Part shown: positions 15,038 through 62,560 of the stretch, one piece after another
Position numbering within the stretch: the stretch's first letter is position 1
Layout of the letters: each line of letters begins with the position of its first letter
NCBI GenBank assembly: GCA_020846775.1
Contig: JADLDG010000022.1
Coordinates: 1 to 64,000, forward strand
Direction of reading: 5' to 3'
From: Nitrospirota bacterium
GTDB taxonomy: Bacteria; Nitrospirota; 9FT-COMBO-42-15; HDB-SIOI813
Length of the DNA stretch: 64,000 bases
Notes under the pieces: model-generated
What the model was told of the DNA's origin: nothing
Databases searched by the model: none
Seen by the model: the letters and a program-made list of their open reading frames with translations, nothing else
Position numbers and translations under genes: made by a program

Positions 15038-15055
15038 AAAGCAATGAGCAATGAG
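15026..15055 (+). repeat. AGCAATGAG short repeat, two copies
   Basis: AGCAATGAG occurs at 15026-15034, and the tandem form AGCAATGAGCAATGAG at 15040-15055. The tandem spells a mini-ORF ATG-AGC-AAT-GAG-TAG directly before hisS, the same one seen before hisC. Confidence 0.6.
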
Positions 15056-15064
15056 TAGGGTATA

Positions 15065-16330
15065 GTGAACCAGATACACAGCATTAAAGGTGTTAAAGAT
15101 GTACTGCCCGATGAATCGGTCGTCTGGCAATACATTCAGCAGAAGGCCCGTGATATATTCAATACCTTTGGTTACAGCGAGATTATTGTTCCCATCATAG
15201 AGTTCACAGAACTATTCTCAAGAAGCATCGGTGAAAACACTGACATAGTAGAAAAAGAGATGTACACCTTTGAGGACAGGGATAGCAAAAAGATTACCCT
15301 AAGGCCGGAGGGAACCGCATCGGTAGTCAGGGCTTACATTGAACATAACCTTCGCGATTCAGAGCCTTTCTCTAAACTGTACTACATGGGCCCGATGTTC
15401 CGCCGTGAAAGACCTCAGGCCGGCCGCTTCAGGCAATTCTTTCAGATCGGAGCAGAGGTCTTCGGAATTGGACACTTCATGATTGATGCAGAAATCCTCC
15501 ACATGCTGCACATGTTTTTCGGTTCACTGAATATAAAGGGTGTCGAATTACAGATAAACAGCATTGGTTGTCCGCTATGCAGACCTTCCTTCAGGAATGC
15601 GCTTAAGGCTTTCTTCACTGACAAAAGGTCTGAATTATGTGATAATTGTCAGAGAAGGTTTGAGTTCAATCCCCTCAGGATACTCGATTGTAAATCCACA
15701 CATTGTCATGCACTTTCTGAAAAAGCACCTAAGACTCTGGACTATCTGTGCAGTGACTGTCTTTCACATTTCAAGGGAGTGCAGCATTCCCTTGATGCAG
15801 CGAGTGTCCCATTTACAAATAATCCCAGGCTCGTCCGTGGGCTTGATTACTATACACAAACAACTTTTGAATTCGTAGGAGGGGCACTTGGCGCTCAAAA
15901 CGCTGTTGCAGCCGGAGGCAGATACGATAATCTTGTAACAGAACTGGGTGGCCCGTCAACTCCAGCAATAGGTTTTTCTATAGGAATGGAAAGGTTATCC
16001 TCACTTTTTGACAGAGTTAACGTCGCTAAGAAGTCTCCATTGGCCTTCCTTGTGGCTCTTGGCGATCAAGCAAGGAAGGAAGCCTTCAATATTATAAACA
16101 ACTTGCATAAAGAAGGGATCGCAACGGTCATGGATTACAGCGGGGGCAGCCTGAAAAGTCAGATGCGTAAGGCTGATAAACTGAAGTCAGCTCACGTCAT
16201 TATTATAGGTGATGATGAAATATCACGGGGTGAAGTAGTACTGCGAGATATGGTAAACAAAAGACAGATAGAATTACCCGTAACAGAAATAATTAACAGA
16301 TTAAAAAATCAGGTCACACGCGAGGGGTAA
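15065..16330 (+). CDS. hisS: Histidyl-tRNA synthetase
   Basis: A 421-aa class II synthetase charging tRNA-His. Motif 1 is in the N-terminal third, motif 2 is MFRRERPQAGRFRQFFQIGAE (around 118-138), the histidine A signature is LVRGLDYYT (about 258) and motif 3 is IGFSIGMERL. A C-terminal anticodon-binding domain spans about 325-415. The frame starts at GTG with a weak ribosome site. Ends 5 bp from the convergent IHF gene. Confidence 0.97.
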   Translation: MNQIHSIKGVKDVLPDESVVWQYIQQKARDIFNTFGYSEIIVPIIEFTELFSRSIGENTDIVEKEMYTFEDRDSKKITLRPEGTASVVRAYIEHNLRDSEPFSKLYYMGPMFRRERPQAGRFRQFFQIGAEVFGIGHFMIDAEILHMLHMFFGSLNIKGVELQINSIGCPLCRPSFRNALKAFFTDKRSELCDNCQRRFEFNPLRILDCKSTHCHALSEKAPKTLDYLCSDCLSHFKGVQHSLDAASVPFTNNPRLVRGLDYYTQTTFEFVGGALGAQNAVAAGGRYDNLVTELGGPSTPAIGFSIGMERLSSLFDRVNVAKKSPLAFLVALGDQARKEAFNIINNLHKEGIATVMDYSGGSLKSQMRKADKLKSAHVIIIGDDEISRGEVVLRDMVNKRQIELPVTEIINRLKNQVTREG

Positions 16331-17553: not shown

Positions 17554-19227
17554 TTAATCAGAGTTAATCTTCCGGGCAGCCTCACCTAATGTAATACCAC
17601 CCTTGTCCTGGTTTTCCATATACTCAGCAATTTCTGCCCTCTCCAGGTCCTTATGATATTCCTTTATTGATAACGCGATCTTTTTCTCTGCAGTATCAAT
17701 CTTTGTTACCACGGCCCGTACCTCATCGCCTATCTTCATAACATCCTCAGCCCTCACAGGAGGTTCCACTCCGGATTCACTTACATGGATAAGACCCTCG
17801 ACCCCCTCTGCGAGTTCAACAAATATTCCGAAGTCGGCAATTTTTATAATCCTGCAGTCAACCGTACTTCCAACGGCAAACTTATCCGGTATCTCATTTT
17901 GCCATGGGTCCCCGGCCAACTGTTTCAGACTTAATGAGATCCGCTGTTTTTCCTTATCAACTTTCACTACTACTGCCTGAACCTTCTGCCCTTTTTTGAG
18001 TACCTCAGATGGGTGTTTGATATGTTTCAGCCATGACATATCTGATATATGAATTAATCCGTCAATACCGTCCTCCAACCCTACAAAGGCCCCAAACTCC
18101 GTAAGGTTCCTCACCTTACCCTCTATTACTGTACCCGGGGTATATTTGCTCTCAACATGACTCCATGGATTTGCTTCCATCTGTTTCAACCCAAGGGATA
18201 TTTTTCTGTTCTGTTTATCAATATTAAGGACTACAGCATTGACCTCATCTCCAGGTGAAACCACTTTTGATGGATGTTTAATATCTCCAGCCCATGACAT
18301 ATCTGATACATGTACCAGACCTTCCACACCATCTTCTACCAATACAAACGCACCATAGTCCGTAAGGCTCACTATCTTGCCCTGCAGCTTAGTGCCGACA
18401 GGGTACCTCTCTTCAACTGTTAACCACGGATCCAGTGTTTTCTGTTTATAACCAAGTGAAATCCTGCCGGTATCAGGATCATATTTCAATACCTTGACCG
18501 CAACCTTATCACCAACCTTGAATACCTCGGATGGATGCCCTATCCTGCCCCATGAGATGTCGGTAATATGCAACAGCCCGTCTACTCCACCAAGATCAAC
18601 GAATACACCATAATCAGTAATATTTTTCACAAAACCATCAATAAGTTTCCCTTCTTCCATAGCCTCAAGGGTGCGCTCACGAATCTTCTCAACCTGCTCT
18701 TCTATCAATGCACGTCTCGATACAACAATATTTCCTCTCTTCTGATCAACCTTGATAATCTTGACCGGGCCTGTCTGACCAACCAGCCTGTCCAGGTCTT
18801 TTATAGGACGAACATCAATCTGCGAGCCTGGAAGGAATGCCTTTATGCCAATATCAACACTTAATCCTCCCTTTACCTTCCCAACGATCTTACCGTCTAT
18901 AGATTTACCCTCTTTGAACAGCAGATCAATTCGCTCCCAAATCTTGCGTCTGTCAGCCTTCTCTTTGGAAAGACTGATGTTCCCTTCCGAGTCTTCCCGC
19001 TCCTGAATGTAAACAGCAATACTATCACCTATCTTGAGGTTCTGAAGCTCCCTGGATGAAAACTCAGAAACAGGCAGTATACCCTCAGACTTATATCCTA
19101 CATCTACTAAAACGCATTCAGGTCTTATGGCAATAACCTCTCCGGTTATTATGCTCCCCTCCTCTATCCCCTGGAATGTCTGGTCGTACAGCTTCTGCAT
19201 TTCGTTATCAGACGTAATATTATTCAT
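17554..19227 (-). CDS. rpsA: 30S ribosomal protein S1
   Basis: 557 aa with six S1 (OB-fold) domains. The last four are strongly alike (DYGAFVLVEDGVEGLVHVSDMSW and variants). S1 binds mRNA leaders and helps initiation. Full-length, as in E. coli. Placed after cmk and plsC as in many Gram-negative genomes. Confidence 0.97.
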   Translation of the reverse strand: MNNITSDNEMQKLYDQTFQGIEEGSIITGEVIAIRPECVLVDVGYKSEGILPVSEFSSRELQNLKIGDSIAVYIQEREDSEGNISLSKEKADRRKIWERIDLLFKEGKSIDGKIVGKVKGGLSVDIGIKAFLPGSQIDVRPIKDLDRLVGQTGPVKIIKVDQKRGNIVVSRRALIEEQVEKIRERTLEAMEEGKLIDGFVKNITDYGVFVDLGGVDGLLHITDISWGRIGHPSEVFKVGDKVAVKVLKYDPDTGRISLGYKQKTLDPWLTVEERYPVGTKLQGKIVSLTDYGAFVLVEDGVEGLVHVSDMSWAGDIKHPSKVVSPGDEVNAVVLNIDKQNRKISLGLKQMEANPWSHVESKYTPGTVIEGKVRNLTEFGAFVGLEDGIDGLIHISDMSWLKHIKHPSEVLKKGQKVQAVVVKVDKEKQRISLSLKQLAGDPWQNEIPDKFAVGSTVDCRIIKIADFGIFVELAEGVEGLIHVSESGVEPPVRAEDVMKIGDEVRAVVTKIDTAEKKIALSIKEYHKDLERAEIAEYMENQDKGGITLGEAARKINSD

Positions 19228-24981: not shown

Positions 24982-25020
24982 GACGATTATTAGCTTTCTT
25001 TCTATCTCATTGTTCACTAC

Positions 25021-25036
25021 TCATTGCTCATTGCTT
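25021..25036 (-). repeat. AGCAATG tandem repeat before hisC
   Basis: On the coding strand AAGCAATGAGCAATGAG, followed by TAG, lies between the pheA stop and hisC. It is identical to the copy before hisS. A single AGCAATGAG is at 20685-20693 (minus), between aroA and cmk. Confidence 0.6.
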
Positions 25037-26249: not shown

Positions 26250-27272
26250 CTATAGCAGGCTCCCCTGCTCTGTTTCTCCAGGTTTAATTATTCCAAAGTG
26301 CCTGTATGCATTCGGTGTTGCGAGACGTCCGCGCGGTGTCCGGTGCAGGAAACCCTCCTGGATCAGGAATGGTTCGTATACATCTTCTATCGTATCCTTG
26401 TCTTCGCTGATTGCGGCAGAAATGGTCTCAAGCCCGACGGGACCTCCGCCGAATTTCTCGATGATCGTCAGGAGGAGTTTTCGGTCCATAATATCAAAAC
26501 CCCGTTCATCAATCTCAAGCATGCCAAGGGCCATTTTAGCTACATCTCTCGTTATGATACTGTCTGCCTTGACTTGTGCATAATCCCTGACCCGCCTCAG
26601 CAAACGGTTTGCTATCCTGGGTGTCCCCCGTGAGCGGCGGGCAATCTCATCTGCACCGCTGTCATCAAGATGAACATCAAGTATATTTGCGGAACGCCGT
26701 AGTATCATCCGCAACTCCTCCGGTTTGTAGAAGTCGAGTCTCGTTATAATCCCGAACCTGTCCCTTAATGGTGATGTAAGAAGACCGCTCCTGGTTGTTG
26801 CGCCAATCAATGTAAATCTCGGTATATCCAGTTTAATCGTCCTTGCAGAGGGTCCCTGACCTATAATAATATCTATCTGATAATCCTCCATGGCAGGATA
26901 CAGGATCTCTTCTATAGCAGTGTTTAACCTGTGGATCTCATCAATAAAGAGCACTTCATTTTTCTGAAGATTTGTCAGTATTGCAGCAAGGTCCCCCTGT
27001 CTTTCTATGGCCGGACCTGATGTGGCCTTTATGCCGACCCCAAGCTCCCTTGAAATAATATATGCAAGCGTTGTCTTGCCAAGACCAGGAGGGCCGTAAA
27101 AAAGGACATGATCAAGTGCCTCTGAACGTCTCCTGGCGGCCTCAATAAATATATTGAGATTTTCCTTTACCTTTTCCTGGCCAATGTATTCGGACAAGGT
27201 AGGCGGGCGCAGCGTCGCCTCGTACCGTTTTTCTTCTTCTTCCAATTGCGCTGTAATTATGCGGTCCTGCAT
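26250..27272 (-). CDS. ruvB: Holliday junction branch-migration helicase RuvB
   Basis: About 340 aa, AAA+ motor of the RuvAB complex. Walker [12 protein letters not shown], Walker B FIDEIHRL, sensor [17 protein letters not shown] and the C-terminal winged helix ([15 protein letters not shown]) are all present. The ATG at 27272 is preceded by GAGAGG; an upstream TTG at 27284 overlaps that site and is rejected. Separated from ruvA by a copy of the double-hairpin repeat. Confidence 0.97.
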
Positions 27273-27280
27273 ATAACCTC

Positions 27281-27356
27281 TCAAATCCCCCCTTCCCCCC
27301 CTTTTCTAAAGGGGGGGAACCAATTTCCCCCTTTGAAAAAGGGGGATTAAGGGGGA
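27281..27356 (+). repeat. Double-hairpin C/G-tract repeat, copy 1 (ruvA-ruvB)
   Basis: Two adjacent palindromes: C-tract-TTT-tct-AAA-G-tract, then CCCCCTTT-gaa-AAAGGGGG, ending ATTAAGGGGGATT. Fills the ruvA-ruvB gap. Same orientation as copies at 36807 and 39293. Confidence 0.85.
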
Positions 27357-27359
27357 TTT

Positions 27360-27947
27360 TCATCTAATCAATGTTTTTAACGCTTCCCTGATCAGCAACT
27401 CAACCGTAATATCCCTGTTCTGACCCAGCACCTTTCTGATTACCTCATAAGCCTGCGCCCTCGGATAGCCAAGATTCACGAGTGCAGACAGGGCATCAGC
27501 CGAGATTGAATGATCCAGATGGGGCTCACCCTCTGCACTGCTCATTGCAGGTAGTTTTTCCTTAAGCTCAAGGATTATCCTGGCAGCTGTTTTCTTACCT
27601 ACTCCTGGTATCATGCTCAATCTCTTGACATCCTCACTCTCTACAATCTTCAACAGATCGGACAGTGATGAACCGGACAGTAAATTAAGACCCATCTTTG
27701 GACCAACGCCTGATATCGTAAGGAGTGTTATAAAAAAGTCTCTTTCCTCCGCGCTTAAAAAACCATAGAGGAGTATCGCATCTTCACGAACATGCGTATA
27801 AGTTTGCAGTATAATCTCTGCATTATCATGTGGCAATCTCGTGAATGTAGTCAGGGGAATAAAGACCTTATACCCGACCCCGTTTACATCTACAACTGCA
27901 TACTGTGGTGACTTAACGACAAGATGTCCGCGGAGATGTGCAATCAT
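27360..27947 (-). CDS. ruvA: Holliday junction DNA helicase subunit RuvA
   Basis: 195 aa. OB-fold N-terminus (MIAHLRGHL to VREDAILLYGF), two helix-hairpin-helix motifs (ISGVGPKMGLNLLS and IPGVGKKTAARIILEL), and a C-terminal RuvB-binding domain (about 150-195). Tetramer that binds junctions and loads RuvB. Overlaps the ruvC stop by 4 bp. Confidence 0.96.
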   Translation of the reverse strand: MIAHLRGHLVVKSPQYAVVDVNGVGYKVFIPLTTFTRLPHDNAEIILQTYTHVREDAILLYGFLSAEERDFFITLLTISGVGPKMGLNLLSGSSLSDLLKIVESEDVKRLSMIPGVGKKTAARIILELKEKLPAMSSAEGEPHLDHSISADALSALVNLGYPRAQAYEVIRKVLGQNRDITVELLIREALKTLIR

Positions 27948-28438: not shown

Positions 28439-28513
28439 TTTAATGATGGGGTCAGGTCTTGAATTTTGATGTAGAAACAACATCAAAATTCAAGACCTGA
28501 CCCCATTATTAAA
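28439..28513. repeat. 34-bp-arm inverted repeat between yebC and ruvC
   Basis: Arms 28439-28472 and 28480-28513 surround a 7-nt loop and pair with one mismatch. The core reads GGGGTCAGGTCTTGAATTT and its complement. The right arm includes the yebC stop codon. It resembles a REP-type palindrome. No transposase is adjacent. Confidence 0.85.
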
Positions 28514-34251: not shown

Positions 34252-35706
34252 CTAATTGACCTTCCTGATTTCTGCAGCCTTCAAATTAATGAAGTTGCTG
34301 GTACTACTTGCTTCACAATGAGGAAGCCGTATCATACCTGAGAGTGGGTTGATTTTACTGTATTCCTCGACCTGTTTCATCGTCAGATTGTGCTTGTTCA
34401 GCATGTCTGCGACTTCTTTCTTTGCGCGTTCCCTGGCTTCATACAGTTTCATCTGCACCCTGCTCTTGACATTGACATCGCTGTCACCTGAAGTCTCTAT
34501 GGAAACAAAGAGGCTGTTGCCGAGGTCGGTTACCACCTTGGACTGAACTCCGTCGCTCTGGGTACTCGGCATGCAACCAAATGGTTTTACTGATACAACA
34601 AGGTGTGCCTTCTTTTCCCTGAACGACATGATATGCTTACCAATCTCCATATGTCCTTCTCCGCCGGATATTTTAGGACTGTAATAGTGTTTTGAATATT
34701 CGGCTATCTTATCCTGGGATGAAAGTGCATCGGGTCTGAATTTCAGGGCACTGCGGTAACTGGTATAATAATAATTGAATAAGAGACTTGCTGCCTTCAA
34801 ACCCAGTATTGCCTTATAAGCCCCTTTTTTTACCTTAATTCGTTCTTTAGCCCGTTCAACATGTTCCCAGAAAATAAAGCTGACCCAGTTACTTACAGGT
34901 TCTGTAACAACCTCAGCCCCTTCAGACTCAAGCCACCTCTGCAGCCTGTAATTTCCATCTCCCTCCGTAGTCATTGCCCAAAACTCACCCGTTAATTTAA
35001 CCTTGGGTTTGATGCGGGAATAATCTACTTTAATTTCCGAGAACAGCTGATTGACTTCTTTCAATATTCTCCGCAGCGGTTTATTCTCTTTAAGCGCAGA
35101 GTAAAGTATGTCACGTCCGCGCTCTATGCATCTGTCTGTTTCACCAGGGACAATTTCATATGGACGTATTTTATAACCCAGTTCATTCAGCATATCACCT
35201 GCCATAATAGTCTTGACCAGGGTAATGAAAAATTTCGGCGTAAGCTCTAAACCCCATTCCCTACCCTGATTCATGTCCCCTGACTGCTGGAAAAGCAGTA
35301 CCCTGAAATCCGGAAATCCGGCATCCCTGAGCGCCTTCCTGTATTCAGCCTCATACATCCCAAAGCGGCACGGACCGCATGAGCCGGCAGTTAGAAAGAC
35401 ATATTTATCATCTATATTTTCCGTATTGGATGCCTGAAGGTTTTGCAAATATTTTATAAGATTTCCAACCGTATAATATGTAGGATTACATTGACCTCGA
35501 TTACCATATTCTTTTCCTACTGAAAGGGATTGATTATCGGGGATTGGAAGATATTTGGCGTTATATCCCATTCCCTGCAGTGCCCCTTCAATAAGATAGT
35601 CATGATTATATGTGAGGCCGCCAAAGAGAATGGTTGTCGAATCACGCTGATCTTTTGTAAATGGTCTCTCAGCAGGTCTCTTGTAATGCAGGACGTGTGA
35701 GTTCAT
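34252..35706 (-). CDS. 2-hydroxyacyl-CoA dehydratase-like partner of the activase
   Basis: 484 aa. Resembles the HgdB-like C-terminal part of the long CoA-enzyme-activase proteins. Cysteines that could hold a 4Fe-4S cluster occur in NRGQCNPTYYT, AGSCGPCRFGM and KPFGCMPS. Its ATG lies 38 bp inside the end of the upstream activase gene, after GAGGAG, so the two are translationally coupled. In many genomes these segments form one polypeptide of about 1400 aa or more; here they are two. The substrate is unknown. Confidence 0.78.
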   Translation of the reverse strand: MNSHVLHYKRPAERPFTKDQRDSTTILFGGLTYNHDYLIEGALQGMGYNAKYLPIPDNQSLSVGKEYGNRGQCNPTYYTVGNLIKYLQNLQASNTENIDDKYVFLTAGSCGPCRFGMYEAEYRKALRDAGFPDFRVLLFQQSGDMNQGREWGLELTPKFFITLVKTIMAGDMLNELGYKIRPYEIVPGETDRCIERGRDILYSALKENKPLRRILKEVNQLFSEIKVDYSRIKPKVKLTGEFWAMTTEGDGNYRLQRWLESEGAEVVTEPVSNWVSFIFWEHVERAKERIKVKKGAYKAILGLKAASLLFNYYYTSYRSALKFRPDALSSQDKIAEYSKHYYSPKISGGEGHMEIGKHIMSFREKKAHLVVSVKPFGCMPSTQSDGVQSKVVTDLGNSLFVSIETSGDSDVNVKSRVQMKLYEARERAKKEVADMLNKHNLTMKQVEEYSKINPLSGMIRLPHCEASSTSNFINLKAAEIRKVN

Positions 35707-38700
35707 TATTTATTAACTCCTCTTCGTATCTTTGTAAAAAGTAGTGTATAGTTTCAACCCGTATCTTAATAGAACCCGAAGGCCTGTTCTCGTCAATATC
35801 ATGGAATGTAAAATAAGGTGTCTGTGTCGCAGAAAGTATCTCCTCAACGACGGCATATATGGGCGAATCATGTCCGCACCTGAAATTTGACAGGTCAACG
35901 GCAACGAGGTTCGGGTGCCTTGCCGTATATTTTGCCCCCCATAATTTCTTATTGGTATTCTCGCTGTATGAGTTCTTCCAAACATCTGTTATTACCATGG
36001 GATGACTGATATCACCACGCCTTATTTCATCACCAAATAGTCTGTCCAGAACATCATCATCCACAGGGAGTGAATCTACCGTAAATATTGGATAACCATA
36101 TTTCTGAATCTCTGATAATATTTCATGATTGAGTCCGGGGTCATTATGATATGGCCTGCCGAGGACTACCACACCCACCTTGCCTTCTGACTCTATCCTG
36201 CTGAGGACTTCCCGTCCTCTCAGTCTGAGATTATTTGCATAGTCTGCAAGGGCCTTAACTCCTGCTTTCATAGCCTCCCTGCATTCACTCTTACTGACAC
36301 CGAATACATCAGACGAGAAAAGAAACATTTGCTGTTCAAACAATTCTGGTTCGCCCATATTCAAGTGAGGTGCAAGAAGCCTTATGCCATGTTTTGCAAA
36401 AAGGTCTTCTTCTTTTGTAAAGGCCGCCTTAACCACTTCGGGGGTAGCTGCAACGGTAGGACAGGAAGAACTTGCTATAGCCTCTTTTATCTCTGAAGGG
36501 AGATCAAGCAGCATAGGGAAGAATATTGCATCCGGGCGGACCTTCTTTCCGTATATAAGGTTATGCATATGCGACAGAGCAACCTTGCTTGGAAAACATG
36601 CATCAATTGCGCCGCGTCTTGAACCCTCTTTATACATCTTTTCATCTGTGTCATCAGACAATATGATGTTTTTGTACGGGACACCAAGTTTTTCGAAATA
36701 TGCTACGAAGAACGGGGCAACTGAGTACATATTGAGTGTCCGAGGAATCCCGATCCTTATATTCCGGCCTTCGGATTTAGGCCTGCTCAATTTGGAGAAT
36801 AACCTTTCAAATCCCCCCATCCCCCCTTTTCTAAAGGGGGGAACCAGATTTCCCCCTTTGAAAAAGGGGGAGTAAGGGGGATTATTTTCATGGCCTTTTG
36901 TGACGCCCGGGCTCATTAATGGTTTTTCTGCAGCCCTGCTTTTAAATACCTCTTTTGCCGCAATCTCAGACAGGTCCGGATACATCTTCTTCAGGCTGTC
37001 AGCCTTCTTTTTTATAGCCTGAACTTCTTTGATATCTTCCACTGTCCCCTTCTCGCAGGTTGCAATTATATAACGTTTAGAGTGTTGGGCAGAAGAGGCC
37101 TCAATATCTATGAATGTCCTCTGGCAGCTGTTCTGGCAAAAATTACACCTTGTATCCTCGCTCCTCAGTGCATTGAAGCTGATACCATCTGCTGCGTCAA
37201 GACCAATAAAGCTTGTGTTTCCATCTCCAGCCACGCGTATTGCCTCGAGCGCGGCTCCTATGGCGCCGCTTTCACCGGTATATTTGTGAACATGTATTAC
37301 GGCCTCAGGCACCCTTGACTTTATAAAGTCATATTGTGACTTTACAGCAGCCAGGTTATGCTGTGTGCCGCCCTGGAGGATAAACGTCTTTCCGAGCCTG
37401 CGCAGATTAGGTTCCTGAACAACATACAGCCAGATATTCTTGGGGAGAACATTAGCGAGTCCTGCCATGATCTCTTCCCGTTCCCATCCCTGCTGTTGAA
37501 AATTTACAATGTCTGATTCAAGAAATACTGCACAACCATAATGGAATAGGGGGAGGCGTTCCGCCTTGAACGCCTTTTCTGCATACTCTGTTACATCAAA
37601 ACCAAATCTCTCTGCAGTGTTTTGAAGAAAATATCCATTTCCGGCAGAACATTGCGTATTGAGTTTAAAGTCCTTAACCTTACCGTCATTGAGAAAGATC
37701 ACCTTTATATCCTGACCACCCACATCTACAATAACATCTGCATCATCAAAATAACGGAGTGCAGATTTAGTGTGGGCAACTGTCTCGACAAGGGCTACAT
37801 CAGCTCCAAAACACTCCTTGAGCATATCCTTTGCGTAGCCTGTAGTACCTGCGCCTCCCACCTCAAGGTGTGCGCCATGTGCTTCTACCTGCTGTCTGAG
37901 ATCTTTTAATATTTCTTTGGTATCATCTATTGGATTACCTTTGGAAAGCCTGTATGCCCTGGCAATGAGATCGCCGTCTTTATTAAGCAGAACACCCTTC
38001 GTAGAGGTTGATCCGCCGTCAATGCCTATATAGCCATGCACTATCTCCCCTGATGAGAAGTCAGGGGGGGTAAATGGCATCTTTTTAAACTCTGCAAGAA
38101 ATCTCTCAAGTTCTTCTTTGTCAGCCGCAAGGCCTGTAGCAGCTGCCCGTGCATCAGATGTCTTACGGCCTCCCGATATATAATCTTCCAATTCCCTTGA
38201 ACCCTTATATCTCCCGACAGACTCGTCTTCACTTTTCCCGTAGATTACAGATCCTATGGCCGCATAGTACTGGGCATTGGAAGGGACGTATATTAGATCT
38301 TCCGGCTTATTGTCAGATGGAAGGATAATACCCCGTTCCTTCCACATCTCTGGGATATGATGTGACCATGCCTCCTGCAGCGCCGGTATAAAGGCATTGG
38401 GCCCCCCCAGGAGAAGCACATGAGGTCTTAATGTATTACCCCTCGTCAGTACGCTTAGATTCTGCTGTACGATGGCCTCGAAAAGTGAGGCCATCAGTTC
38501 TTGAGATGGTATACCCTGTTTTTGAAGTCCGTTTATGTCTGTCTCTGCAAAGACGCCGCATTTACCTGCAACAGGGTGCAGTCTTGTACCGGCATACCTA
38601 ATGGCACTTACATCTTCATGTGAAATATTAAGTTTGGCAGATATCTTGTCTATCACTGCTCCGGTACCGCCTGCGCACTTATCATTCATGCTGGAAAGCT

Positions 38701-39094
38701 TTCTCTTATTGCCATTGTGGTCTTCGGACCAGATGATAATCTTTGCATCCTGCCCGCCCAGTTCTATAACAGACCCGGCATCAGGGTGTTTTTTTTCCAC
38801 TGCAAGAGAGACGGCGTTTACCTCCTGAACAAACTTGGCGCCAATCAGAGCTGCCACGGCCCTCCCGCCACTCCCGGTTATAAAGATACGGAACCTGTCA
38901 GATTGCCCTTTGAATTCAATCTCTATTGTATGAAGAAATTCCAGGACCTTCTTAATCTGCATCGTATCGTGCCGCTGATAGTCGTACCAGAGAATGTTGT
39001 CAGTGGCGGCATCCATGACAACAGCCTTAACAGTGGTAGAGCCTACGTCAAGACCGATGAAGAGATTCTGCTGATGGGAAACTATATTGCTCAT
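35669..39094 (-). CDS. Giant BadF/BcrA-type CoA-enzyme activase (two ATPase domains plus DUF2229)
   Basis: 1141 aa. Two BadF/BadG/BcrA/BcrD ATPase domains: the first with FIGLDVGSTTVKAVV, CAGGTG and GKCGVFAETD; the second with GYIGIDGGSTSTKG, CSAGNG and YGCAVFLESD. The paired cysteines would bridge a 4Fe-4S cluster as in HgdC. A CxxCxxxC motif (CNFCQNSC) follows near residue 660. Then comes a DUF2229 domain (about 768 onward, IRIGIPRTLNMYS). Such activases couple ATP hydrolysis to injecting low-potential electrons into dehydratases or reductases. Residues about 727-765 are encoded by an in-frame copy of the double-hairpin repeat, between the cluster motif and DUF2229. Confidence 0.88.
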   Translation of the reverse strand: MSNIVSHQQNLFIGLDVGSTTVKAVVMDAATDNILWYDYQRHDTMQIKKVLEFLHTIEIEFKGQSDRFRIFITGSGGRAVAALIGAKFVQEVNAVSLAVEKKHPDAGSVIELGGQDAKIIIWSEDHNGNKRKLSSMNDKCAGGTGAVIDKISAKLNISHEDVSAIRYAGTRLHPVAGKCGVFAETDINGLQKQGIPSQELMASLFEAIVQQNLSVLTRGNTLRPHVLLLGGPNAFIPALQEAWSHHIPEMWKERGIILPSDNKPEDLIYVPSNAQYYAAIGSVIYGKSEDESVGRYKGSRELEDYISGGRKTSDARAAATGLAADKEELERFLAEFKKMPFTPPDFSSGEIVHGYIGIDGGSTSTKGVLLNKDGDLIARAYRLSKGNPIDDTKEILKDLRQQVEAHGAHLEVGGAGTTGYAKDMLKECFGADVALVETVAHTKSALRYFDDADVIVDVGGQDIKVIFLNDGKVKDFKLNTQCSAGNGYFLQNTAERFGFDVTEYAEKAFKAERLPLFHYGCAVFLESDIVNFQQQGWEREEIMAGLANVLPKNIWLYVVQEPNLRRLGKTFILQGGTQHNLAAVKSQYDFIKSRVPEAVIHVHKYTGESGAIGAALEAIRVAGDGNTSFIGLDAADGISFNALRSEDTRCNFCQNSCQRTFIDIEASSAQHSKRYIIATCEKGTVEDIKEVQAIKKKADSLKKMYPDLSEIAAKEVFKSRAAEKPLMSPGVTKGHENNPPYSPFFKGGNLVPPFRKGGMGGFERLFSKLSRPKSEGRNIRIGIPRTLNMYSVAPFFVAYFEKLGVPYKNIILSDDTDEKMYKEGSRRGAIDACFPSKVALSHMHNLIYGKKVRPDAIFFPMLLDLPSEIKEAIASSSCPTVAATPEVVKAAFTKEEDLFAKHGIRLLAPHLNMGEPELFEQQMFLFSSDVFGVSKSECREAMKAGVKALADYANNLRLRGREVLSRIESEGKVGVVVLGRPYHNDPGLNHEILSEIQKYGYPIFTVDSLPVDDDVLDRLFGDEIRRGDISHPMVITDVWKNSYSENTNKKLWGAKYTARHPNLVAVDLSNFRCGHDSPIYAVVEEILSATQTPYFTFHDIDENRPSGSIKIRVETIHYFLQRYEEELINNELTRPALQETC
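36807..36920 (+). repeat. Double-hairpin repeat, copy 2, in-frame inside the activase gene
   Basis: The core palindromes (36807-36885) are nearly identical to copies 1 and 3. Similarity to copy 3 continues to about 36920 (ATTATTTTCATG, then TTTGTGA..CCC..GGCTCAT). Translated on the minus strand it reads NPPYSPFFKGG, then PPFRKGGMGGFERLF, with no stop or frameshift. Confidence 0.9.
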
Positions 39095-39248: not shown

Positions 39249-39423
39249 TCTTTGCGGGCCCCGGCTCATGACGGTTCACTCGAAATAGCCTTTCAAATCC
39301 CCCTGCCCCCCTTTTCTAAAGTGGGGCAACTAATTTCCCCCTTTGAAAAAGGGGGAGTAAGGGGGATTATTTTCATGTACTTTGTGAGCCCGCGGCTCAT
39401 GATGGTTCATCCGGAAATAGTGC
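39249..39423 (+). repeat. Double-hairpin repeat, copy 3, flanked by direct repeats
   Basis: The core palindromes (39293-39370) are flanked by an imperfect direct repeat of about 40 bp. The left copy is 39249-39290 and the right 39379-39423, each running TTTG..GGCTCATGA.GGTTCA..CGAAATAG. The same right-flank sequence is found in copy 2. This fills the gap between the operator array and the DUF190 gene; no gene is seen in it. Confidence 0.8.
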
Positions 39424-44381: not shown

Positions 44382-45360
44382 TCCGGTAGCAGAAGCGCTA
44401 AAGACTTTTTTTGATGCATTTCCATCTGGGCCTCTCGGCATTGAGGAGGTCGGGATCAGTGAGATCAACAGGAGGATAGCGGCTATTGATGTTAAGGCAA
44501 CAATAGATTCCCCCCCTTTTTCAAGGGCATTAGTAGAAGGTTATGTAGTTAATTTGCCGGACGTTGCTCATGCCGGAGAAAACAAGCCTGTGACCATTGC
44601 AGTTGCCGGGACGATAGAGCCGGGAAAGACGTATTCAGAGGGACTGCCGGCTATGACATGTATGGAGATTAGAACAGGCGGCTTTGTGCCTGAAGGAGAT
44701 TTTGCAGTAGTGAGACATATGGACATCGTTAAGACAGCCAATGGGATAATAGTAAAAAAACCTTTAAGCAGAGGAGACAATATAGAGCCTAAAGGCTGCG
44801 AGCAGAAAAAAGGTGATGTAATAATCAGTCTTGGAACAAGACTATCCCCAAAAGAGATTATGTTGCTCGCGAGTCATGGTATCTCATCTGTCACCGTATC
44901 AAGGAAGCCTATAGTAGCAATATTCAGTACAGGAAATGATATATTGAGACATGCTGAACCTCTTAAGCCGGGCTATGTCTGGGATGCAAACTCATACACA
45001 CTTGCAGCTCTTGTAGAGGAATGTGGTGGAATGCCGCTTGTAGTTGATATTATGAAAGACGATTTAACCATGTTTCAAAAGGCGCTTCGCGGCGGACTCA
45101 CCCGCGTTGATATGGCAATTATTTCAGGAGGGACAGCCGCCGGTGGCAGGGAGTTTATCGCAGAGCTTATCAATTCCATTGATGTCCCGGGTGTGGTTGT
45201 GAATGGAGTTTCAATGAAATCAGGAAAGCCTCTGATTATGGGAGTACTCTCGGACAAACCTATAGTATGCGTAGCAGGATACCCGCCAGAAGCCATGAGG
45301 GGTTTTGAATTATTCGGGAAACCGACTATCAACAGGCTATTAGGTGTTAAACAGCCATGA
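44362..45360 (+). CDS. Degenerate MoeA-like molybdopterin domain protein
   Basis: 332 aa, shorter than MoeA (about 400) and apparently lacking the C-terminal domain IV. The overall MoeA order is kept: an N-terminal region, a beta-barrel domain (VAGTIEPG to VVRHMDIV) and a MoCF-like domain (PIVAIFSTGNDI). Key motifs are changed: the MDGYA loop reads LVEGYVV, and SGG(V/T)S(V/M)G reads SGGTAAGG. It may no longer insert molybdenum and may have another nucleotide or pterin role. No other moa/moe genes are in the window. Confidence 0.72.
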   Translation: MNNQQNDPVAEALKTFFDAFPSGPLGIEEVGISEINRRIAAIDVKATIDSPPFSRALVEGYVVNLPDVAHAGENKPVTIAVAGTIEPGKTYSEGLPAMTCMEIRTGGFVPEGDFAVVRHMDIVKTANGIIVKKPLSRGDNIEPKGCEQKKGDVIISLGTRLSPKEIMLLASHGISSVTVSRKPIVAIFSTGNDILRHAEPLKPGYVWDANSYTLAALVEECGGMPLVVDIMKDDLTMFQKALRGGLTRVDMAIISGGTAAGGREFIAELINSIDVPGVVVNGVSMKSGKPLIMGVLSDKPIVCVAGYPPEAMRGFELFGKPTINRLLGVKQP

Positions 45361-45387
45361 GCCTCAGACTGGCAAGTGGTATTAATA

Positions 45388-45463
45388 TCCCCCTTAATCC
45401 CCCTTTTTCAAAGGGGGAAAACAGGTTCCCCCACTTTAGAAAAAGGGGGATGGGGGAATTTGA
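45388..45463 (-). repeat. Double-hairpin repeat, copy 4 (inverted)
   Basis: Same two-palindrome element in opposite orientation, between the MoeA-like gene and thyX. Flanking bases end GGGGGAATTTGAAA, the complement of the TTTCAAATCC edge of other copies. Confidence 0.82.
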
Positions 45464-45496
45464 AACTGGATTTTCGCATGAACGAGTACAACTGAA

Positions 45497-60408: not shown

Positions 60409-61599
60409 ATGGTCACGATAAGGAATACAGTAGTTTACCCTCTATTATTAATCTCTATGTTGCTTCTCTTTGCAACAGTTGCGAGACCTGCTCATGATGA
60501 GACTCCTCAATCTGTCTTAAATAGTATTCGTTATTGGAAGGATCCGAACTATACCAGGATAGTGATTGATTTAAATAGTCCTGTAACTTTCAGGGAAAAG
60601 TATCTTCCAAATCCTGACAGGCTTTTTATTGATCTCCACAATACAATTATGGGCAATGGTATTAATCCGATTCAGATAAGCGACGGAGTTGTAACTCAGG
60701 TACGGGCAGGACAGTTTGATAAAGAAACTGCGCGCGTGGTTATTGAACTTAATGCGAGGGCCGGGTATAAGATTCTGCCTCTTTCATCACCGGACAGGCT
60801 GGTAATAGATGTTTTAAGAGACACAGCGCCACCCGCAATGGAACATAAACAAAGAATGGAAAAAGATGATAATAATAATATCATCATACCCGGCCAGACG
60901 ATCGTAATAGACGCCGGTCATGGAGGTAAAGACCCCGGCGCCATAGGCAGGAGCGGCCTTAAAGAAAAAGACATAGTGCTTGATGTAGCCCTCCGGTTAA
61001 GGAAGCTTGTAAAAGAAAAGCTCGGTGTCAATGTGATAATGACAAGGGACACGGATGTCTTTATCCCACTTGAAGAAAGGACTGCCATCGCCAATACGAG
61101 GGGGGCTGATTTCTTTGTGTCTGTTCATGCCAATTCAAGCAGGAGGGCAGGCGCTAAGGGAGTTGAGACATACCTGCTTGGCAGGGCAACTGACAGGGAT
61201 GCTATGGCCACAGCCGAGCGTGAGAACAATGCAACTGAGAAATCATTGAACACACTTCAATTGATTTTGACTGATCTTTTGAATACCGCTAAGAAAGAAG
61301 AGTCTTTGAGGCTTGCTCACTATGTTCAGGAAAATATGATCGGTCACATGGAGACACGTTACAAAGTAACGGACCTTGGTGTAAAGCAGGCGCCATTTTA
61401 TGTGCTGGTAAATGCAAGGATGCCAAGTATACTTGCCGAGATATCCTTTATCAGCAATCCTGAAGAAGAAAAGTTATTGGCTGATGCTGACCACAGGCAG
61501 GAGATTGCTGAGGCTATTCTGAAGGGTATCAGGAAATACATTCAGGCTACTCCACTTCTTGCCCAGCCGAAAGAGGCAAACTACTCTTCTTTACAGTGA
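60409..61599 (+). CDS. amiC: N-acetylmuramoyl-L-alanine amidase with AMIN domain
   Basis: 396 aa. Signal peptide (about 1-27); AMIN domain (about 38-140, YTRIVIDLNSPV) that targets the septum; Amidase_3 domain (about 163-385). Zinc and catalytic residues are in VIDAGHGGKDPGA, SGLKEKDIVLDV, VSVHANSS and ILAEISFISN. Cleaves peptide from glycan during cell separation. Transcribed toward truA and the dcw cluster. A TTGACA lies at 60366 but its -10 is weak. Confidence 0.95.
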   Translation: MVTIRNTVVYPLLLISMLLLFATVARPAHDETPQSVLNSIRYWKDPNYTRIVIDLNSPVTFREKYLPNPDRLFIDLHNTIMGNGINPIQISDGVVTQVRAGQFDKETARVVIELNARAGYKILPLSSPDRLVIDVLRDTAPPAMEHKQRMEKDDNNNIIIPGQTIVIDAGHGGKDPGAIGRSGLKEKDIVLDVALRLRKLVKEKLGVNVIMTRDTDVFIPLEERTAIANTRGADFFVSVHANSSRRAGAKGVETYLLGRATDRDAMATAERENNATEKSLNTLQLILTDLLNTAKKEESLRLAHYVQENMIGHMETRYKVTDLGVKQAPFYVLVNARMPSILAEISFISNPEEEKLLADADHRQEIAEAILKGIRKYIQATPLLAQPKEANYSSLQ

Positions 61600-61702
61600 C
61601 AATACTGCTTCAATATCGCATTCTCCTGAACCCTGCACTCACTGCACGGTTTATATCACTACTGTCCCCCGGCTGCGGGAGGGCAGAAAGTATTATTCAA
61701 CC

Positions 61703-62560
61703 ATGATATTCAACATCAGGATGATTATAGAATACGATGGGACAAACTATCATGGATGGCAAAGGCAGTCATCCCTGAACCGTGAAACGGGTGATCTACA
61801 TAAGACCATTCAGGGAACTATCGAAGACGTCCTTGCCCGCATCACAAAGCACCCTGCGAAGATTGTTGCTGCAGGCAGGACCGACGCCGGAGTCCATGCA
61901 ACAGGACAAGTTATACATTTTAAAACAGCCCTGAAAATTAATGAATCATCCTGGATTAAGGCCTTAAACTCTTTTCTTCCATCAGATATAGTCGTAAGGA
62001 ATGCAGATTATGTCAATGAAGAGTTTAATGCAAGGTATGATGCAAAGAGCAAAGTATACAGATATTTCATATGTAATTCCGGTTACCCATCCCCATTTTA
62101 CAGAAATTATGTGTGGCACAACAAATACCGTCTCAATATCCCGTTAATGAGAGAAGCATCACAATATCTGCTTGGTCATCACGATTTTTCCTCTTTCCGT
62201 GCAGCTGATTGCAGCGCTACATCACCGGTAAAAACCCTGAACAGGCTTGAAATTGATGAGGTGTCACTCGAAAATCCCGAATCAATTCACTTCTTAGCCC
62301 CCTTTTCTAAAGGGGGGATGGTGAGATCATCCTTATCATCCTCTCTGAGCCTGCAGCCAGCTAACATACTCATCCTCACCTTTGAAGCCAGATCATTTCT
62401 CCAGCACATGGTCAGGAACATCGTAGGAACACTATCTGAAGTTGGCAGGGGGAAATTTACTCCTTTTGATATAAAAAGCATCCTGGAAAAAAGAGACCGG
62501 CGTTATGCAGGCCCTATAGCCCCTCCGCAGGGTTTGTATTTGTATGAGGTGAAGTATTAG
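61703..62560 (+). CDS. truA: tRNA pseudouridine(38-40) synthase
   Basis: About 285 aa from the ATG at 61703. The upstream in-frame ATG at 61559 overlaps amiC and adds unrelated sequence. Catalytic Asp in AAGRTDAGVHATGQVIHF (about 60). HHDFSSFRAADCSA and FLQHMVRNIVGTL are typical. Residues near 198-208 (FLAPFSKGGMV) are encoded by a half copy of the dispersed hairpin repeat in a loop that varies in the family. Confidence 0.95.
   Translation: MIFNIRMIIEYDGTNYHGWQRQSSLNRETGDLHKTIQGTIEDVLARITKHPAKIVAAGRTDAGVHATGQVIHFKTALKINESSWIKALNSFLPSDIVVRNADYVNEEFNARYDAKSKVYRYFICNSGYPSPFYRNYVWHNKYRLNIPLMREASQYLLGHHDFSSFRAADCSATSPVKTLNRLEIDEVSLENPESIHFLAPFSKGGMVRSSLSSSLSLQPANILILTFEARSFLQHMVRNIVGTLSEVGRGKFTPFDIKSILEKRDRRYAGPIAPPQGLYLYEVKY
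62298..62319 (+). repeat. Half copy of the hairpin repeat inside truA
   Basis: CCCCCTTTTCTAAAGGGGGG, one of the two palindromes of the dispersed element, read in frame as PFSKGG. The second hairpin is missing. Confidence 0.75.

Follow-up and report, generated by a model that had tools for sequence, protein, structure and literature searches.

The stretch of DNA analysed here (64 kb, hereafter the window) carries on its minus strand, at 35669-39094, a gene for an acyl-CoA dehydratase activase with two BcrAD_BadFG domains and a DUF2229 domain (residues 780-1009), and the intact open reading frame of 1141 amino acids holds a copy of a palindromic repeat in frame. The ORF that follows on the same strand (34252-35706), which overlaps the end of the activase gene by 38 nt and has no Pfam or NCBIfam match at 1e-3, would by its position be the separate second half of a protein that is fused in homologues of 1400 amino acids. 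The in-frame insertion occupies positions 36803-36934 of the minus strand, is 132 bp or 44 codons long and adds residues 721-764 (AAEKPLMSPGVTKGHENNPPYSPFFKGGNLVPPFRKGGMGGFER). A sequence-only reading of the window had already recognised the repeat at this place and its preservation of the frame, but alignment with the orthologue of a genome of the same genus (G001) moved the limits from the 36807-36920 and residues 727-765 first proposed, and raised the size from about 39 residues to 44. The compared stretch measures 237 bases here and 105 in G001, exactly 132 fewer, and the G001 orthologue is 82-85% identical. The same clean gap was found in the orthologues of G003 and G004, these relatives belonging to the same genus and family, and the homologues of other families have unrelated linkers without the insert peptide, so that the peptide was not met with in unrelated lineages lacking the DNA element. 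The edges of the insertion are uncertain by about 3 bp and AGG stands at either side; because the empty site of G001 GGCTATCGTCCAAATTGAA resembles the right end of the element GGCTATTTTCGAGTGAA, the exact edge is ambiguous, and this empty site may itself be the product of a past excision in G001. Within the insertion, the palindromic core shared with other copies of the genome (36807-36890, minus strand) consists of two C-run/G-run hairpins that can also pair with each other, with a fold of -50 kcal/mol.

The insert lies in the linker between the cysteine motif (C650, C653, C657 and C680) and DUF2229. Structure prediction gave residues 721-764 as disordered (pLDDT about 30), the region under pLDDT 50 extending from 724 to 775 between a confident helix and the first strand of DUF2229. 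A fold search with the model returned only the known activase/ASKHA fold. Both this model and the orthologue alignment bear out the initial proposal that the repeat sits at a domain boundary where it can be accepted as a linker. The insert would presumably be translated, and we read it as a recent insertion that is probably nearly neutral. In two further genomes (G009 and G007, loci L032 and L033) the activase linker consists of 40-50 residues that differ in sequence and may stem from other repeats, which makes it look like an insertion hot spot.

Four further copies were examined in the window. The 84-bp core of the activase copy is 94% identical over 77 nt to the copy at 27281 and 90% identical to that at 39293, and about 81% identical, in inverted orientation, to that at 45388; all three had at first been described as nearly identical to it. 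The first of these (27258-27408, minus strand) had been called intergenic and is better described as intercistronic, its right end adjoining the ruvB start (ATG at 27272) and its left end providing the ORF upstream with its TGA stop. The second (39271-39420, minus strand) is indeed a full-length intergenic copy, located 5' of the activase gene; a second left module stands directly after it, as if tandem addition of units were possible. The third (45344-45487, plus strand) is intercistronic between two plus-strand ORFs, and its site is empty in G001. The fifth copy of the window is a half copy with one hairpin (62259-62318, minus strand), antisense within truA (61559-62560, plus strand); it is a weak case and was rejected as a clean insertion, since G001 has a loop of equal length.

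The full element comprises a left module ATTTTCGAGTGAACCGTCATGAGCCGCGGGCTCACAAAGGTACATGAAAAT, a core AATCCCCCTTAATCCCCCTTTTTCAAAGGGGGAAATTAGTTACCCCACTTTAGAAAAGGGGGGCAGGGGGGATTTG and a right end AAAGGCTATTTTCGAGTGAA, and measures about 90-150 bp. Its right end reads GATTTGAANGG..ATTTTCRR-RTGAA, that is, a Shine-Dalgarno-like motif plus a start codon. Cores fold to about -43 to -51 kcal/mol (RNA folding; z about -3.5), and no shuffled sequence folded as well. Searching the 2.7-Mb genome with the hairpin pattern, allowing up to 3 mismatches, yielded 149+152 matches against 2+2 for the reversed pattern (about 75-fold, well beyond chance); since one copy can be counted for each of its hairpins and on either strand, they correspond to about a hundred or more sites. 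The element core itself gave 41 scored matches in this genome. With a profile built from 15 copies we located 88 places in 353 kb of the genome's own sequence, picked around copies, and 68 in about 771 kb of G001, all the genomes compared being fragmented assemblies. In public genomes the right-end pattern was almost confined to this phylum, 47 of 50 stretches being titled Nitrospirae or Thermodesulfovibrionia. The core was not found in viral contigs, no Rfam family matched at gathering score, and a non-exhaustive literature search found no report of the hairpin sequence or of coding palindromes in Nitrospira, and neither coding palindromes nor start-codon placement for this lineage. At several loci of G001 (for example C49:25855, C48:23469 and C28:71117) the left and right ends known from this element enclose unrelated palindromes (CTTCGACAAGCTCAGG; CGTCATTCCCGCGAAAGCGGGAATCC).

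The majority of copies are oriented and occupy intercistronic sites between co-directional genes. In 77 of 125 copies the interval from -25 to +60 around the right end contained a gene start on the same strand, compared with 3 of 125 in the mirror control (p about 1e-19), and 51 of 106 copies, compared with 8, had the same-strand stop of an upstream gene close to their left end. A simple codon score served to call the starts near copies, and ten of them were checked with NCBIfam: those of RmlD, apgM-type phosphoglycerate mutase, HemC, IspD and PPOX coincide with profile positions 1-4, those of TssA, LexA and RuvB fall within about 15 residues, and two of the ten had no family. When the right-end pattern was searched without its start codon, 24 of the 50 right ends in other public genomes led straight into an ORF that was 60 amino acids or longer (or ran off the contig), against 8% of random positions. 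RTGAA follows the right end in most of these 50 stretches and is also present where no gene starts; it therefore belongs to the repeat or to its target. In 6 of 23 copies of this genome, and in 0 of 56 elsewhere, an ORF within the element shares 4 nt (GTGA) with the gene that follows; a conserved GTGA-coupled mini-ORF was hence rejected as a general trait, being confined to a sub-family of this genome.

Insertion into protein genes, many of them housekeeping genes, recurs in related bacteria. By scanning for copies that a reading frame crosses without a stop and whose flanks look coding, and identifying the genes with Pfam, we found 21 strong in-frame copies (45 bits or more), spread over seven genomes of this Nitrospirota family. 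They lie in this genome in the genes for the activase, PolA, a P-type ATPase (C2), a GT9 protein (C1:18518), HypC/radical SAM (C67), ProRS (C17) and Mfd (antisense); in G001 in those for CopA, Rsm22, GcvT, HAD-GT9, UDG and ManC; and in five other genomes, with eight copies, in those for UvrA, MutS, MnmG, TruB, HAD-GT9, UDG, TonB and a TPR/PMT protein. Weaker fragments occur in MutS, a GT2 protein and truA of this genome and in CarA, a histidine kinase and MMPL of G001. The coding tolerance that had been suggested for the lineage from the activase alone is thus upheld by some 20 more in-frame copies, strong and weak, in this genome and G001 and by the eight strong ones elsewhere. About 10% of the strong copies in the samples of this genome and G001 are coding. 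Strong coding copies are read 12 sense to 1 antisense, against 33 to 37 for open frames in non-coding copies (p = 0.001). Alignment with relatives gave a clean gap for activase, PolA, UvrA and CopA, the PolA insert lying between the exonuclease and polymerase domains and the UvrA insert after the interaction domain. At the corresponding point the UvrA gene of this genome carries a different repeat, which has the identical ATTTTCA-GATGA junction, and the radical-SAM linker is occupied in this genome and in G001 and by a different repeat in G003. The ProRS copy stands at a contig end and its alignment is untidy. The PolA linker of this genome (G000:C82:13927-14130, L090) holds two tandem element pieces, with 64 residues compared with about 6 in G001.

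Could selection maintain the insert because it serves the activase as a functional peptide or a regulatory linker? Its site between the cysteine motif and DUF2229, and the fact that this linker differs among lineages, would fit such a role. However, the same DNA occurs in unrelated proteins and in different frames, the B-hairpin being read as KIPLNPPFSKGE and as NNPPYSPFFKGG across the coding copies, so that no peptide is conserved as such; relatives have other sequence or nothing at the site, and the insert is predicted to be disordered. We consider selection for the peptide improbable. Still less probable is that the in-frame copies are scars of operon read-through, in which an intercistronic element lost the flanking stop and start and two genes were fused. 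Most copies are intercistronic and co-oriented, and some contain a small ORF running on into the following gene, which would suit this reading, but relatives free of the element have activase, PolA, UvrA and CopA each as one chain. Moreover, coding copies read the right end as GFER.FS[DGN]E (for example GFERGFSDE), so that RTG is out of phase as a codon, in contrast to gene starts, and this excludes a simple operon fusion. Given its high stability (-50 kcal/mol), the hairpin might instead be skipped at the RNA level or bypassed by the ribosome, so that the peptide would never be made; yet coding copies are stop-free and in frame, which skipping would not need, and we give this as little credence as the fusion. 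Least credible of all is an artefact or chimera of assembly, for although these assemblies break at repeats and several copies lie near contig ends, the activase ORF is intact with an 85% identical orthologue either side, and the recurrence of strong in-frame copies, 20 comparable ones across seven genomes assembled independently, argues against error at the site.

Several of the empty sites, though not all, hold a candidate target sequence. In their empty state the UvrA, PolA and C2 ATPase sites have a native RTGA at the junction, the CopA site has it in part, the activase site has TTGA, and the GcvT and Rsm22 sites have no native RTGA. RTGAA was rejected as a target-site duplication since left and right copies disagree within elements when inspected by eye, and no clear or consistent target duplication was seen. 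No mobilising enzyme was found among the candidate loci examined, which were of Y1_Tnp type only: none of the eight contains the element. The single Y1_Tnp gene of this genome (L136), which is RAYT-like, was rejected as mobiliser, as it has the repeat GGGGTCAGGTCTTG on both sides. This inverted repeat, GGGGTCAGGTCTTG/AAGACCTGACCCC, occurs in the window at 28439-28513 and flanks the RAYT-like gene at about 985-1015 and 2098-2125 of L136; it is likely to be the REP family of the genome's own RAYT.

Taking these results together, we hold with considerable confidence that the repeat is a family-specific, MITE-like selfish palindrome whose right end would join RTGA(A)-like sites in sense and whose in-frame linker copies survive in genes. 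Such a non-autonomous element would spread through the genomes of this Nitrospirota lineage by means of a transposase, its right end ...GATTTGAANGG..ATTTTCRR presumably joining sense-strand sites of RTGA(A) type, and most surviving copies would for this reason lie between co-directional genes. There the right end would place a Shine-Dalgarno-like motif directly before the start, so that the downstream gene stays translatable and insertion beside the start codon leaves both genes usable. Within genes, only in-frame copies at surface linkers would survive, as disordered inserts rich in Pro, Gly, Lys and Phe. A bolder version, which we advance tentatively and think somewhat more likely to be wrong than right, is that of a selfish cassette carrying its own initiation site (Shine-Dalgarno motif, spacer and start codon) that joins RTGA(A) sites in sense. 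If true, its one target rule would explain the starts of next genes in operons and the in-frame protein copies alike, and the unrelated palindromes between the same ends in G001 would be the cargo of one moving frame.

Among known repeats, the selfish palindrome is best read as an element that is tolerated in coding sequence like an RPE and placed like a MIRU, and as new for this lineage; what marks it off within known kinds is that it is at once palindromic, accepted in genes and equipped with a start of its own. Protein-coding palindromes are best known from Rickettsia and Wolbachia, intracellular bacteria for which genome decay is a usual backdrop. Here such insertions reach the genes of DNA polymerase I, repair and tRNA modification in Nitrospirota of groundwater, whose genomes measure 1.5-3 Mb. 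The RPE, 105-146 bp long and present in 19 reading frames according to one account (PMC2229807), and the Wolbachia palindromic elements are like ours dispersed palindromes of about 100-150 bp, intergenic as well as in frame in conserved genes. The present host is however not of the Rickettsiales, the right end being found almost only in Nitrospirae, and the two C/G-run hairpins, the right end with its ribosome-binding site and start codon, and the strong orientation bias set the element apart from RPE, to which it is likened by features alone and not by sequence. MIRU elements, whose target was reportedly given by Supply et al. in 1997 as DTGA, are similarly intercistronic, operon-oriented and placed at start codons. 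Insertion at start codons has been described for them (PMC12548453), but the present element has a palindromic core, its coding insertions are common, and an internal ORF with 4-nt overlap is found only in the sub-family of this genome. ERIC/RU-1, RU-2 and the 107-bp Correia elements are MITE-like as well, and Delihas described their open frames and in-frame fusions within genes (PMC2229807, PMC2759123); they differ in sequence, hosts and ends, and the portions of these accounts at hand do not describe a start-codon association. REP/RAYT repeats are also palindromic, dispersed and present in many copies, but copies of our element do not flank the RAYT-like gene.

The start-codon end provides a testable rule for the low-harm spread of a selfish repeat in a gene-dense genome, and the element shows one route to new linkers and new gene starts. 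For annotation, peptides such as PPFSKGGE or GFERGFSDE should be read as the mark of a repeat and not as a domain. Two other repeats were seen in the window: AAGCAATGAGCAATGAGTAG, at 15039-15082 and 24993-25036, which elsewhere in the genome also stands beside palindromic elements, and a 115-nt direct repeat (71% identity, spacing 261) at 18008-18383, inside the ORF at 17554-19227.
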